Part shown: in pieces, positions 6,601 through 58,900 of the stretch
How positions within the stretch are numbered: position 1 is the stretch's first letter
How the letters are laid out: each line of letters begins with the position of its first letter
NCBI GenBank assembly: GCA_032358255.1
Contig: JAULBX010025198.1
Span: forward strand, 1-64,000
DNA length: 64,000 nucleotides
From: Heterotrichella gracilis
Taxonomy: Eukaryota > Sar > Xanthophyceae > Tribonematales > Xanthonemataceae
Reading direction: 5' to 3'
Made by a program: the position numbers and the translations under genes
The notes under the pieces: model-generated
Told to the model about the DNA's origin: nothing
Databases searched by the model: none
Seen by the model: only the letters and a program-made list of their open reading frames with translations

Positions 6601-8564
6601 CCCCTTGGTCTCAGGTCGGCGGCATGGAGAAGGTCTTCGAAATCGGACGCATCTTCCGCAACGAGGGCACCTCCTCGCGCCACAACCCCGAGTTCACATC
6701 CATCGAGCTGTACCAGGCCTACGCAGACTATAATGACATCATGGACCTCACCGAGGAGATGGTGCGCACGGTGGCCATGGAGGTGTGCGGGGCCGTGCAA
6801 ATACCCTACCAAGGGTTGGAGCTGGAGCTGGGGGCCGGGTTCAGGCGCGTGAGCATGCATGCGCTGGTGGAGGAGGCCTCAGGTGGGTGGTGGGGGGCGG
6901 AATGTAGCTCTGCCCTGTGGTAGTAGTGCTTTGCATGGTGGTGTGCACGTGGGATAGGCGTATGGGAACATGTATACAGGTAAACACATGGCCCTATAAG
7001 AAAGTGCTCCCTCCTCCCCTCTTCTGCCACCCCTTTGGCAAATGTCCCTCCCCTCCCCTGCCACAGGCATTGATTTCCACCCCCTGGCGGCCGACCTGCC
7101 GGCCGCGCGCAGCGCCGCACTGGAGGCCCTGGCCCGCCTAGGCGCGCCCCGCAGCGCCCGCGACGCCGTCACTGCCGCACCCTCTGTGGGTGCCCTGGTC
7201 GCCGACATGTTTGAGAGCTTGTGCGAATCCAGCCTCCAGCAGCCCACCTTTGTGATTGACTACCCGGTGGAGATTTCGCCCTTTGCCAAGCCCCACAGGA
7301 GCATCCCCGGGGTCACAGAGCGCTTTGAGCTGTTTGTGGCAGGTGGGTGGGTGGTGGTGGGGATGGGCGGTGGGGCTGCACTGCTGGGGATGCAGGGCTA
7401 CCCCATGCCGCGGCCTAAACCTTACACCAATTTAAAAACCTTTCATTGCACATGTGCTGTCCATGGTTTTTGAGCCGCGGCGGGTACTCATTATTATCCG
7501 TACTCTTAGTCTGTATAGCAGGATGTGTGCGCATGCATGTGCCCTTGGCGGCACAGAAAACCTGACCAGGGCTGGCGCTGGTCGTGGTATACAGCCACCC
7601 ACCCACCATCCACCCCACTGCCCACACACCCTGCAGGCCGCGAGCTGGCCAATGCCTTTACCGAGCTGACCGACCCTGTGGAGCAGCGGCAGCGGCTGGT
7701 GGGCTGCTCCATGCCACAGGCTGCAAACCCTGACTCCCCCTAGAAACCTTGTGCTGCATGCAACCCTGTACCCTTGGCCATATAGCCCATGACGGATGAT
7801 AGAGCCACCCATCCACCCACCCACCCACCCATCCCACCCCTCACACACTCTGCAGCTTTCCTACGCCTGGTATTTGGCAGCAATGCCCGCTCGGGTGTGA
7901 TCCACCCCCTGGCTCATACTGATGTGGTTCCCCCCCTTGCAGGTCGTGAGCTGGCCAATGCCTTCACTGAGTTGACCGACCCTGTGGAGCAGCGGCAGCG
8001 CCTGGTGGCGCAGGTGGAGGGGCATGCCAAGCGGAGGGAGGCCAAGGCGGCGGCCAGGGCGGTGGAGAACGGGGCGGAGGGGGACAAGGTGGATGACGAG
8101 GACGATTATGAGGTGGGTTTAGGGTTTGGGGTCTAGGGTTTAGTATGTGGGCAAAGGGCGAAAAAGTGGATGACGAGGAGGACTATGAGGTGGGTGGTGC
8201 AGGTTGGCCTTGCCCAAAACATTGGGTCAGTGTTTAGGGTTTGTTGAACCCTGTGCGCTGTGGAGCAGGTCGCTCTTGACCTAGACTTTGGGTTAGGGTT
8301 TGGGGTTTTAGTTAACCCCGTGGGCTGTGGGGCAGGTTGCACTTGACCTGGACTTTGGTCTAGGGTCTAGGGGTTAGGGTTTATGGTTTTGTTGAAACCC
8401 CGTGCGCCTTGGTGCAGGTTGCCCTTGACCTGGACTTTGTGACTGCGCTTGAGTACGGCATGCCCCCCACGGGCGGCATGGGCATGGGCATTGACCGCCT
8501 CGTCATGCTGGTCACTGACTCCCCCTCCATACGCGACGTCATCGCATTCCCCTTGATGAAGTGA
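3622..8564 (+). CDS. lysyl-tRNA synthetase, class II, probably organellar
   Basis: Nine exons join in phase: 3622-3870, 4223-4438, 5097-5326, 5831-5924, 6268-6408, 6615-6882, 7067-7342, 7943-8112 and 8418-8564 (about 596 residues). The enzyme charges tRNA-Lys with lysine using ATP. Residues 1-83 are Arg/Ser/Ala-rich, then Lys/Gly-rich, which fits a mitochondrial or plastid transit peptide. An OB-fold anticodon-binding domain follows (about 100-190: [25 protein letters not shown]). The class II catalytic core has motif 2 ([14 protein letters not shown], near residue 325), then [27 protein letters not shown] and motif 3 ([11 protein letters not shown], near residue 570). The core reads like bacterial and plant organellar LysRS. 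Length and domain order are normal. Introns 3, 7 and 8 are odd: a 19-base minisatellite, and echoes of the heads of exons 8 and 9 and the tail of exon 8. Organellar targeting is inferred. Confidence 0.93.
5483..5708. repeat. 19-base minisatellite in intron 3 of lysyl-tRNA synthetase
   Basis: Roughly eleven to twelve head-to-tail units of GCATACCATGTGGCTCAGT occur, with scattered single-base changes and one 17-base unit. The units are contiguous with no spacers. The array lies wholly inside the intron between 5326 and 5831. Confidence 0.9.
7637..7701 (+). repeat. echo of the head of LysRS exon 8, with its own acceptor
   Basis: An acceptor ending CTGCAG is followed by about 65 bases nearly identical to the start of exon 8 at 7943, encoding the same 22 residues ([13 protein letters not shown] and onward). 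After that the copy diverges and reaches a stop. Changes are mostly silent (for example GCC CGC for GGT CGT), so the copy keeps the protein sequence but not the rest of the exon. Confidence 0.85.
8160..8417 (+). repeat. echoes of LysRS exon 8 tail and exon 9 head
   Basis: At 8160-8189 about 30 bases repeat the end of exon 8 (KVDDEDDYE) including the GTGGGT donor. At 8269 and 8335 two acceptors (AGCAG, GGCAG) each precede about 20 bases of the exon 9 head (VALDLDF) before running into TTTAGGG-like DNA. The true exon head is at 8418. Spacing is 66 and 83 bases, so these look like decayed tandem units that include exon edge plus intron. Confidence 0.85.
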
Positions 8565-55900: not shown

Positions 55901-58900
55901 CAACGTCACCCTCACCGCCATGGACATGACCACAAACACCACATCCGTGTGCATGACCGAGGTGGGTGGTAGGGTTTGAGATCTAGGGTTGAGGGAGTAG
56001 GGTTTGTGGTTTGAGCGTAGAGCAGCACATCTTCCAAGCGCAGCACCGAGGTGGGTGGGAGTTAAGGGTTTGTGGAGGAGAGAAATTAGGGTTTATATTG
56101 TAAAGGTTAGGGTTGACCATATAGCACCACAGCCACCTCCTTGTGCACCGCCCAGGTGGGTGGTGGGGTACAGGCTGTGTTATACACTGCCACAACCCTG
56201 CGCTGCACCAGCTATATTGCCCAGCGTTGAGCCATGCCCGGACCATTGTGTACCCCTTGCCGCATCAAACCCTACCCCTCACCCCACCGCCCCCCTCTTA
56301 ACCGCCTCCCCCGCCCCCAGGTCCGCTTTGACTACTGCCCCCCCGTGCTGGTGCCCATCAACACCACCGTGGACCTCATGGGCTCGCTCATGAAGGTGGC
56401 AAACTCCTCCATGCAAATGTGCGGCTACACCCTCACCGACGCCAACGTGCTGCTGGCAGACAAGTACAACCCCAACGTGCTGCCCATCGTGCACAACGAC
56501 TCCTCGGTGGCCCTCGACACCGACATGCTGGTGTTCCGCCCCATGCTGGACCTCAACAACACCATGGACTTCGAGTTTCTGTCGGTGCAGATGTTCGACT
56601 GGTCGGGCCTGCGCGGGTATGTGGACAACTCCACCGGCGCCTCCGAGCCCCCCGTGTACAGCGACCCTGTGAACGGGACTGCCATGGTCACCCCCTGCGA
56701 CCCCATCCTGGACTGCCACACCGTCTACACGCCGGTGGGTTGAGCATTGCTCCGCATAGGGTGCAAAACCCTTGCATGGGGTTTCCTCGGGCGCCTGGGC
56801 ATGGGTGCCAAGGGTCCATCACCGGTGCCACTCTCTGGGGACCTGCATTTGGCAATGACCTAAACCAGCCCTGGGTAGCCCATCCATCTGATGGGGAACT
56901 CCTGGGAACCTCTGAGCAATCTCGTCACTGCAAGCCGAGCTGTGCGTGGTTTTTGGCAGTGGCAAAACACCACCTCTGACTGATCTGACATAGTACCATC
57001 TGAAAACTGGTGCACTCTCTTGTCTGCTGCTGCCTTCCCTGCCTGACCCTCCGCCACATCTCAAAAAGAGGGGTTGTCATTTCCTCTCTGTCCCTGACCT
57101 CCCCCACCCTCTCTCTCCATCCACAGGGCGCCCTGATTGACTCTGATGAGATGTGCGCGATTGGTGTGGACGCTGTGAACATCTCCACCCTGGTGGCTGG
57201 CTCCTATGACCCCAACAACTGGGATGTGAAGCTCACTTACGAGCTCACAGATGTGCCTTCCAACGACATGCTCATGTCGGGATCCAACGAGATCGGCGTC
57301 AACGTACGTTTACGCCTTCCTTTAACCAGAACCCTAATATGTTCACATGCGCATGAGGGGCATCTTTGAGCCATGAGAGCCATGTTTGTAGCCTGCGGCG
57401 CATTCCTTTGTCAACAAATAAGCGCACCCTTGGGAACTTCCCTCCCTGCTCATGATCCCCTGTGTTTGTTCTGTGACAACCACTGGTGCGGGTGTGGCGT
57501 CATCACATCCTCAAGCCCCCCTACTTCTGAATCCTACCCCCACCCGTGCAGGCCACCTCCATCTACGGCACCTCCGCCACCTGCAACGCCACCGTGGCCG
57601 TGGCCCCGTGCGACCCGTACGTGTCCTGCGGGGATGTGTCCCTGCCAGCAGTGGGAAACAGCACCGCCGGCTGCACCGCAACCCTGGACCCCAAGACGGT
57701 AGGCAACACCCTAGCCTGCAAAATCCTAACTTGAACCTTGCACACCCCAACCAAACCTCTTAGGCTGCATGCAGCATTGTGGGTATCGGTGATGCCGCCT
57801 TGTTACACAAGGCTATGTACTGTAGTGACCAGGCACTACCCTTTGAAGCCCGCTTGGGTTGATTGAATACTTGTTTCGCTGGGCCGTGATGTTTTGTCTC
57901 GTTCGTCTGAAGTGCGAGTTTAACCAACACAAAGCCTTGAGGACAGTATACACCACCCATAAACTGAGCCCAGCGAAAAGCCATGCAGCACTTTTCACAC
58001 CTGCTATAATTCAATCGCCACTCCCCTGCTATCCTGCTCCCTCCACACATGCACCCCAGCGTTCCATCCATTAACGCCACCCCCGTCCTTTACCCTGCAG
58101 CTCCAAACCACCGGCAATGTGACTGTGTGGGACGGCAACATGGCAGGTCCCCCCGTGGTGGGCATCACCGGGGGAGACAACCTGATGTACGACTTTGTCC
58201 TCGGAGGGGGCCCTGCCGGCAACTACAGCATCAAGGCCACCAACAGCTTTGGCAACGTGTCCATGTGCTCAGGGGAGGTGTATGTGGAGGACACTAACGG
58301 GGAGTGCAGCGCGCAGCCATGTGAGTGGAAAACCCTGGTGAAACCCTAGGGTGTGGAAAGCCGATGTGAAACCCTAACGTGTGGTTGTGGCTGGGCTGGC
58401 AATGGCCCTAGGTATGTGTGTGGCATGATACCCTTGTGGAATTTGCTGTGACAGAAGTGCTTGCAAGCAGTATGTGGGCCCTAGCTGGGCCCTCGCGCCA
58501 TGCTCACTGTTGTGTGTGGGCACATATGCGTGTGATAGTGCACAGCAGGGAGTCCCAAGCACATGGCCTTATCCATATTCCCAGCTTCCAACCCCCCTCC
58601 ATGACCAGCCTCACTCCCCCCCTTGACCCCCCCACTCCCCTCCCCCTGCAGTCGTGCCCCCCTCGGTCACCTGTCTCACCGCCAAGCAGGTGGGCACCCT
58701 CTCCCTGTGCACCTACGCAGTGAACGGTGGTGTGGAGGTGCCTGTGGATGTGGTGCTGGCCAACGTCAGCGACCCCTCCGCCAACCTCACCACCTCCACC
58801 GTGGTTGCCAAGGAGCCAAACGCAGACGGCCTGCTCCAGGGGAGCATCACGCTGGTGGCGATCAACGCAGAAGGGGAGGACAGCTGCATGGTGGAGGCCA

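Follow-up and report, generated by a model that had tools for sequence, protein, structure and literature searches.

Copies of exon edges inside adjoining introns in a 64-kb window of the Heterotrichella gracilis genome

Genes of the window and echoes of their exon edges

The window analysed here, a 64-kb stretch of a single assembly contig of the alga Heterotrichella gracilis that was studied as DNA sequence alone, carries seven curated genes on the plus strand, which encode a LysRS, a protein kinase, a pair of pseudokinases, a bZIP protein, a GH2 protein and a protein with a PA14 domain. Together these genes hold 65 exons (17.0 kb) and 58 introns (23.7 kb) with 116 internal exon edges, the gene ends being approximate. 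Our subject is the echo, by which we mean a copy of exon edge sequence, with or without the splice site, that sits inside the adjoining intron, and the observation that duplicated exon edges lie inside these introns is confirmed as real. The window has a G+C content of 56.8% and contains no N, and its introns mostly have G-rich heads and C-rich tails.

With respect to the gene models, an initial ab initio run produced a single gene across the entire window, including numerous false exons, and curated exons were used instead. The joined models contain no internal stops except in the kinase downstream of exon 7; kinase exons 7 and 8 (16258-16893) join out of phase in the model, and a small exon may have been missed there. 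The frame of kinase exon 8 was taken from its own open frame, and exons 7 and 8 were joined by hand for the Pfam search and for the kinase protein alignment. Five of the six proteins searched against Pfam scored above the cut-off (class II tRNA synthetase, 2.1e-75; protein kinase, 3.4e-48; GH2 domains; PA14; and the kinase domain of one pseudokinase), the bZIP protein fell under it (E 0.00086), and the LysRS model aligned with a solved LysRS over most of its length (2e-125). With the kinase as query, bacterial and archaeal genomes yielded nine loci that share 26-40% identity with it and belong to metagenome-assembled genomes of bacteria; viral contigs, scanned with the kinase and LysRS proteins, yielded no relatives, and Rfam (gathering thresholds) and tRNA searches found no match.

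Every exon was aligned against its own adjacent introns, with dinucleotide-shuffled introns, introns of other genes, inverted adjacent introns and non-adjacent introns of the same gene as controls. At the main cut-off, a score of at least 36, 17 of the 116 adjacent exon–intron pairs passed, as against 0/580 shuffled pairs and 0/260 pairs with introns of other genes. None of the 116 inverted adjacent pairs reached this score, in agreement with a preliminary description of this DNA that had called the copies always direct, and only 1/476 non-adjacent pairs from the same gene did. With the cut-off lowered to at least 32, 18/116 adjacent pairs passed versus 2/260 with other-gene introns; the head of PA14-gene exon 14 (score 32) is marginal because those two controls also reach 32. 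At a score of at least 28, six of 580 shuffled pairs pass, so chance matches occur at that level.

The position of the matches is sharply defined. In 17/17 pairs the best match on the exon side is 0-4 nt away from the facing edge (combined p 5e-16, for the best match per exon side). Of the 26 matches scoring at least 28, 24 are no more than 4 nt from the adjacent edge; the exceptions, at 9 and 27 nt, are extra copies at edges that have a better echo. Each match covers a single exon end, the far edge of the exon being 52-377 nt away. Such edge contact is predicted by tandem duplication, because a duplicated unit has to cross the edge if it is to carry exon sequence into an intron; the earlier statement that the copies always span a splice site is therefore partly forced.

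Three further edges (the heads of kinase exons 3 and 8 and of GH2 exon 7) are intron arrays with only about 6-12 nt of exon. The total is 21 of 116 edges, about one in six, comprising 10 heads and 11 tails and including one weak and one marginal case. By gene, echoes are found at 12/22 edges in the kinase, 3/16 in LysRS, 3/18 in GH2, 2/26 in the PA14 gene, 1/14 in bZIP and 0/20 in the pseudokinase pair, which had already been described as free of echoes. The preliminary count of about twenty edges is upheld: all 18 edges listed carry an echo, the weakest being the kinase exon 8 head (best alignment 22 nt short of the exon, eight shared exon bases by eye), and to these we add the LysRS exon 8 tail, the GH2 exon 6 tail and the marginal PA14-gene exon 14 head. 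That list gave no per-edge coordinates, and the echo found at each named exon is assumed to be the one meant; its bZIP exon 4 and PA14 exon 6 are bZIP exon 3 and PA14-gene exon 5 in our numbering.

Each echo is a direct copy beside its source, with one to three per edge, as had been noted before. Units of about 54-200 bp recur as earlier stated, but copy spacing runs from 54 to 582 nt (77-306 nt in 23/26) and units may reach 300 bp. Divergence, previously put between one change in 70 bases and barely visible, ranges from 1 change in 70 nt in the youngest echo to about 21% in the oldest. GT or AG is retained in 20/26 echoes, which seems to us unremarkable at such divergences. Recognisable echo spans make up 3,985 of 23,687 intron bases (16.8%), and the phrase "introns built from" copies was therefore an overstatement. 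The individual features are as follows, z values referring to the intron part of the unit.

7637..7702, plus strand: LysRS exon 8 head echo, 92% over 64 nt, acceptor kept; real exon 7943-8112
8149..8189, plus strand: LysRS exon 8 tail and donor echo, added here; score 47, 83% over 41 nt, GTGGGT donor kept
8194..8417, plus strand: LysRS exon 9 head array, Tandem Repeats Finder (TRF) periods 67 nt and 82 nt; exon parts 8269-8290 and 8336-8357 (scores 29, 39); real exon from 8418
11998-12072 (with donor) and 12169-12249, plus strand: kinase exon 2 tail, two echoes, 84% and 81%, with gaps and in-frame stops; the first is homologous in its intron part too (z 6.8)
12503..12732, plus strand: kinase exon 3 head array, about 11 nt of exon and intron tail; score 73 vs shuffled maximum 25
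13671..13724, plus strand: kinase exon 4 head echo, spacing 54 nt, 94% over 31 nt; z 2.5
13997..14029, plus strand: kinase exon 4 tail and donor echo, 88% over 33 nt; z -0.5
14281..14530, plus strand: kinase exon 5 head, three echoes (14281-14313, 14372-14394, 14451-14477) with intron parts; exon part 82-100%; z 6.0 and 4.1 in the two nearer echoes and -0.9 in the one farthest away
14714..14755, plus strand: kinase exon 5 tail and donor echo, 1 change in 42; z 6.7
15392-15442 (good), 14965-15010 and 15298-15319 (decayed), plus strand: kinase exon 6 head, three echoes, 96%, 79% and 92% over 51, 47 and 24 nt, scores 92, 42 and 34
15737..15855, plus strand: kinase exon 6 tail and donor, two echoes, period 84 nt, 94% and 97%; z 5.1 and 3.8
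15926..15976, plus strand: kinase exon 7 head echo, acceptor lost, 80% over 51 nt
16736..16893, plus strand: kinase exon 8 head array, the weakest case; 63-nt TRF array, 8 nt of exon shared (by eye)
17130..17211, plus strand: kinase exon 8 tail and donor echo, 89% over 83 nt, in-frame stop
18260..18319, plus strand: kinase exon 10 tail and donor echo, 89% over 57 nt
38821..38862, plus strand: bZIP exon 3 tail and donor echo, 79% over 42 nt, score 39
48150-48189 and 48271-48318, plus strand: GH2 exon 4 tail and donor, two echoes, 85% and 88%
49501..49531, plus strand: GH2 exon 6 tail echo, donor lost, added here; 84% over 31 nt, score 37
49711..49872, plus strand: GH2 exon 7 head array, period about 57 nt (TRF 57 x 3); score 59 vs shuffled maximum 33
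55892-55998, plus strand: PA14-gene exon 5 tail echo, spacing 107 nt, exon part with 1 change in 70, whole unit head-to-tail
near 56028 and 56133 (span to 56155), plus strand: PA14-gene exon 5 tail, decayed partial further copies
60537..60562, plus strand: PA14-gene exon 14 head, marginal echo, score 32, reached by 2/260 controls

Introners are similar elements that occur in introns across many unrelated genes, and the telomere-like and C-rich tracts common to many introns of this window might recall a mobile element of that type. Among the 58 introns compared, however, matches between genes (22 rows at E of at most 0.01, pseudokinase pair aside) are only 16-43 nt long and telomere-like or C-rich where inspected; nothing of at least 100 nt is common to introns of unrelated genes in the window, and the echoes match the neighbourhood of their own exon rather than other genes, as the 0/260 control indicates. 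An introner-like origin is, in our view, scarcely credible.

Anatomy and decay of the duplicated units

The structure of a unit is most legible in the youngest echo, at PA14-gene exon 5, where the stretch 55785-55891 adjoins its copy (55892-55998) with no gap; the copy comprises 70 nt from the end of the exon, the donor and some 37 nt of intron. At the kinase exon 6 tail an 84-nt unit occurs three times, counting the real copy, and multi-copy arrays are also found at the kinase exon 5 head, exon 2 tail and exon 3 head and at the LysRS exon 9 head. The intron half of the unit is likewise duplicated (z at least 3.0) in 10 of 24 tested pairs. In being direct, next to their source and in these pairs duplicated on the intron side as well, the echoes bear out the earlier proposal of tandem duplication across splice sites.

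Serial small tandem duplication across exon–intron borders, with the spare copy spliced out and decaying, is the explanation that we consider likely. Under this model, small duplications (units of about 54-200 bp, perhaps to 300) would recur across the borders; the copy that stays attached to the exon would be the downstream one at an exon head and the upstream one at an exon tail. Splicing at the inner site would leave the protein unchanged, and the remaining copy, carrying a redundant acceptor or donor, would for that reason be free to decay as part of the intron, while repeated rounds would give rise to arrays and longer introns. The inner splice sites are probably those used, judging from reading-frame continuity and protein homology. 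The description of the process as continuing is compatible with the spread of divergence from 1 to 21%, which suggests, rather than demonstrates, that duplication is still under way.

Introns with echoes (n = 15) have a median length of 536 nt versus 331 nt for the others (n = 43; p 4e-5), and of 253 nt once echo spans are removed. This fits the claim that duplication lengthens introns, although longer introns also give more room for matches. As for a multiplication of candidate splice sites, the retained GT and AG dinucleotides agree with it, as sites of potential use. Copy spacing is divisible by three in 9/26 cases, which is the chance level. In-frame tandem repeats also occur within coding exons (11014-11255, 33737-34620), in stretches rich in Ser, Pro and Gly and with unit lengths of 54 and 87 nt; these are counted in favour of tandem duplication because repeats of this kind would be expected from that process when selection acts on the frame.

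Outside LysRS, the codon changes look like those of unconstrained sequence: 35.8 of 106 are synonymous, compared with 42.8 expected for free echoes, the kinase gene supplying 75 of the 106. The changes in the kinase and GH2 genes are as for free sequence, and bZIP and the PA14 gene have few. In-frame stops are present in 3/26 echoes and gaps in 6/26. If constraint acts on the real exon and not on the echo, the ratio of exon-part to intron-part divergence should be about (1+s)/2, where s is the synonymous share of mutations; s is 0.18-0.31, and the expected ratio for real-versus-echo pairs is therefore 0.59-0.66. The 15 such pairs, pooled, gave 73/745 differences in the exon part and 104/647 in the intron part, a ratio of 0.61 (bootstrap 0.42-0.80), and six echo-versus-echo pairs, for which the expectation is 1, gave 40/254 versus 29/226 (ratio 1.23, p 0.43).

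A rough age is given by the pseudokinase pair (21290-27533 and 28092-35475), which occupies a segmental duplication of about 7 kb. Local alignment of the introns of the two copies gives 78-85% identity, and echoes in which the intron half is still readable, being 16-17% diverged, are therefore about as old as that duplication or younger. One member of the pair, pkB, has an intron 1 longer by 361 bp and also a longer last exon, with 87-nt repeats.

The LysRS gene, one of five genes looked at, departs from this pattern. Of the 16 codon changes in its four echoes, 13 are synonymous and 3 nonsynonymous, compared with 6.4 synonymous expected (p 0.0009), and the differences are synonymous at 5/5 codons in the exon 8 head echo and at 4/4 in the exon 9 head array. 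The exon 8 echo has a good acceptor by site scores and a donor-like end (CTG|GTGGGC), and the candidate exon 8a so defined (7637-7698) would join exon 9 in frame. This echo may be a present or former coding alternative, judged by its sequence, and chance or a two-allele origin would also fit. Relative to the best-matching solved LysRS, real exon 8 (7995-8112) encodes about 20 additional residues, which form a charged stretch.

These LysRS features, together with the retention of GT or AG in 20/26 echoes, are what could be cited for the view that echoes in general are functional, maintained alternative exons or splice sites. Against it stand the free-sequence changes of the kinase and GH2 genes, the stops and gaps, a spacing unbiased to multiples of three, and the comparison of LysRS and the kinase with one alignment each, in which small gaps occur in both but no echo-sized insertion at the echoed edges; we regard general maintenance as very unlikely. 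The mostly synonymous LysRS differences would also suit two alleles, and hence an assembly artefact in which alternative haplotypes or reads had been placed end to end. An artefact is highly improbable, given that divergence extends from 1% to about 21%, that an edge may have up to three echoes, that the copies end at differing points inside exons and that intergenic DNA contains few copies.

Placement of the copies and telomere-like words

The distribution of copies was examined in 60-base windows having a local copy at a score of at least 38, with 507 low-complexity windows excluded; neighbouring windows overlap and are thus non-independent. Copies were found for 25/171 windows at edges, 75/521 in exon interiors, 91/823 in intron interiors, 11/115 of mixed type and 6/993 in intergenic DNA, many of the exon-interior windows falling in the in-frame 54-nt and 87-nt coding repeats. 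With exons masked, which removes the advantage that exon conservation gives, copies were present in 97/1,530 deep intron, 10/283 splice-proximal and 12/2,165 intergenic windows, the intergenic stretches being ones that may contain genes outside the curated models. Between modelled genes there are direct repeats about 2 kb apart (43217-43467 and 45252-45470), with 80 nt at 82% and 36 nt at 92%.

The exon-masked copies were grouped by hand into 16 intron families, excluding a 6-nt array at 14794-14869, and two intergenic ones. Among intron families with units of at least 50 nt, 11/12 belong to an edge, compared with 5.2 expected under random placement (p about 0.0006-0.0007); scoring the kinase exon 8 head as non-edge gives 10/12 (p 0.005). 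For all 16 families the figure is 11 versus 5.8 expected (p 0.006), and for 17, once the 6-nt array is included, it is again 11 (p 0.006), or 10 with the kinase exon 8 head scored as non-edge (p 0.024). With the kinase gene removed, 4/5 are edge-belonging versus 2.0 expected (p 0.08). Echo events cluster by gene, 0/5,000 label shuffles being as clustered, and these p-values therefore flatter the edge excess; the gene bias that had been claimed is thus supported, and the kinase gene, with 12/22 edges, drives it.

One reading of this excess, which we offer only tentatively, is that exon edges are themselves a mutational target, a cause tied to splice sites making small tandem duplications far commoner there than in intron interiors or intergenic DNA. 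Candidate causes, as doubtful as the reading itself, would be transcription, spliceosome-linked R-loops, breaks at G-rich donor or C-rich acceptor tracts, and possibly telomere-like healing. Introns might then grow by copying their own borders and so yield spare splice sites, some kept as coding alternatives, perhaps in LysRS; this, too, we hold to be possible rather than probable. Neither donor G-runs (p 0.20) nor acceptor C-runs (p 0.47) were significant predictors of echoes.

Telomere-like CCCTAAA/TTTAGGG words occupy 3.3% of intron DNA, versus 0.3-0.7% in shuffled sequence and 1.4% in intergenic DNA; examples lie at 46755-46796, 47265-47286, 55864-55886 and 58330-58348. TTTAGGG is given as the ancestral telomere repeat of green algae in the relevant passage of PMC8226300. 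In the introns these words peak 20-40 nt past donors (12.4% coverage), and 17 of 58 introns have one at +8 to +50, compared with 7.8 expected (p 0.0005); upstream of acceptors, 11 of the 58 have one versus 8.9 expected (p 0.25).

This distribution, along with a content of telomere-like 7-mers of 7.7% in echo spacers versus 2.8% in other intron DNA (p 0.009, rotation within introns), is consistent with a role for break repair instead of slippage or unequal exchange, in which staggered breaks near splice sites would be filled in from both sides, duplicating the target and sometimes leaving telomere-like repeats between the copies. Passages of PMC2246262 describe a parallel at interstitial telomeric sequences, where telomeric insertion was accompanied by target duplication at 6/130 rodent and 4/25 primate loci, and several echoes likewise have telomere-like repeats between duplicated flanks. 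In the youngest echo (PA14 gene, 107 nt), in contrast to those loci as described, the tract lies inside both copies and belongs to the unit, and must therefore have preceded the duplication. Telomere-like words are also present in 29/44 introns without an aligned echo, compared with 12/14 with one (p 0.19). Break repair, which concerns the molecular step and not the anatomy, accordingly appears unlikely to us.

Several observations weigh against serial tandem duplication as the full explanation. The edge excess (11/12 vs 5.2) and the scarcity of intergenic copies are not predicted by plain random duplication, and the model accounts neither for the preference of edges over intron interiors nor for the concentration in the kinase gene. 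In 14/24 pairs the intron part has z below 3, and these 14 are therefore tandem by analogy only; some of them are farther copies, which global alignment serves poorly. The divergence ratio is uneven, at 0.45 (0.19-0.72) in the eight pairs with proven intron homology and 0.88 (0.74-1.16) in the other seven, whose intron alignments are possibly due to chance; the test is loose, and at 0.45 there would be room for a degree of constraint on the exon part as well, or for low-complexity intron tracts that change faster. Finally, the LysRS echoes keep their coding sense (13/16 changes synonymous), and use of the inner sites is a prediction from frame and homology.

Relation to known systems and meaning

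Tandem exon duplication is known to give rise to mutually exclusive exons. There, as here, exon sequence is copied beside itself, but the whole exon and both splice sites are involved, whereas an echo comprises one exon end and one site, and most copies are decaying.

A closer precedent is the potato RdRp gene, in which, according to the account of the event in PMC4974935, tandem duplication over an intron–exon border produced a new intron. That account concerns one event in a single gene and a newly created intron; in our window existing introns are lengthened, the modelled protein is unchanged, and 21/116 edges are affected, donor edges (11) as often as acceptor edges (10). More generally, tandem duplication of exon segments is treated as an accepted route of intron gain in passages of PMC3443670 and PMC2891723. 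The two processes are alike in that local tandem duplication provides splice sites and differ in that an exon segment with AGGT is duplicated to create an intron in the intron-gain model, whereas here the unit spans an existing splice site.

None of the seven curated gene models requires a new intron. GH2 intron 2 (47260-47540) is apparently GC-AG (ACAG|GCAAGA), and it opens with a repeat of the beginning of exon 3 (ACAGGCAAGA), as would be expected of an intron born of duplication. In GH2 intron 7 (50105-50476) and PA14-gene intron 4 (55391-55732) the donor and acceptor flanks are alike at 10/16 positions, a level reached by 0.18% of cross pairs; over the 58 introns, flank repeats as a sign of intron gain show no clear overall excess (4.47 vs 4.14 matches).

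In Haematococcus lacustris, repeats make up 47.3% of the genome and most interspersed ones are short and arranged in tandem, and the passages of PMC7617258 that describe them make no mention of exon edges. We found no report of edge duplication at such density in the open-licence literature, which is not proof of absence. The density, the serial arrays and the edge bias thus look new, while duplication across a single border has already been published for potato.

Intron growth and the origin of new splice sites have mostly been inferred from few cases. In the kinase gene, 12/22 edges carry echoes with ages from fresh to nearly erased, and rate, decay and splice-site choice could be read from one locus. 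An over-permissive ab initio run labelled several echoes as exons, and gene models of this genome would be prone to false exons should the pattern extend genome-wide; the genome of this alga would then also constitute a natural experiment on intron lengthening and on the choice among near-identical splice sites.

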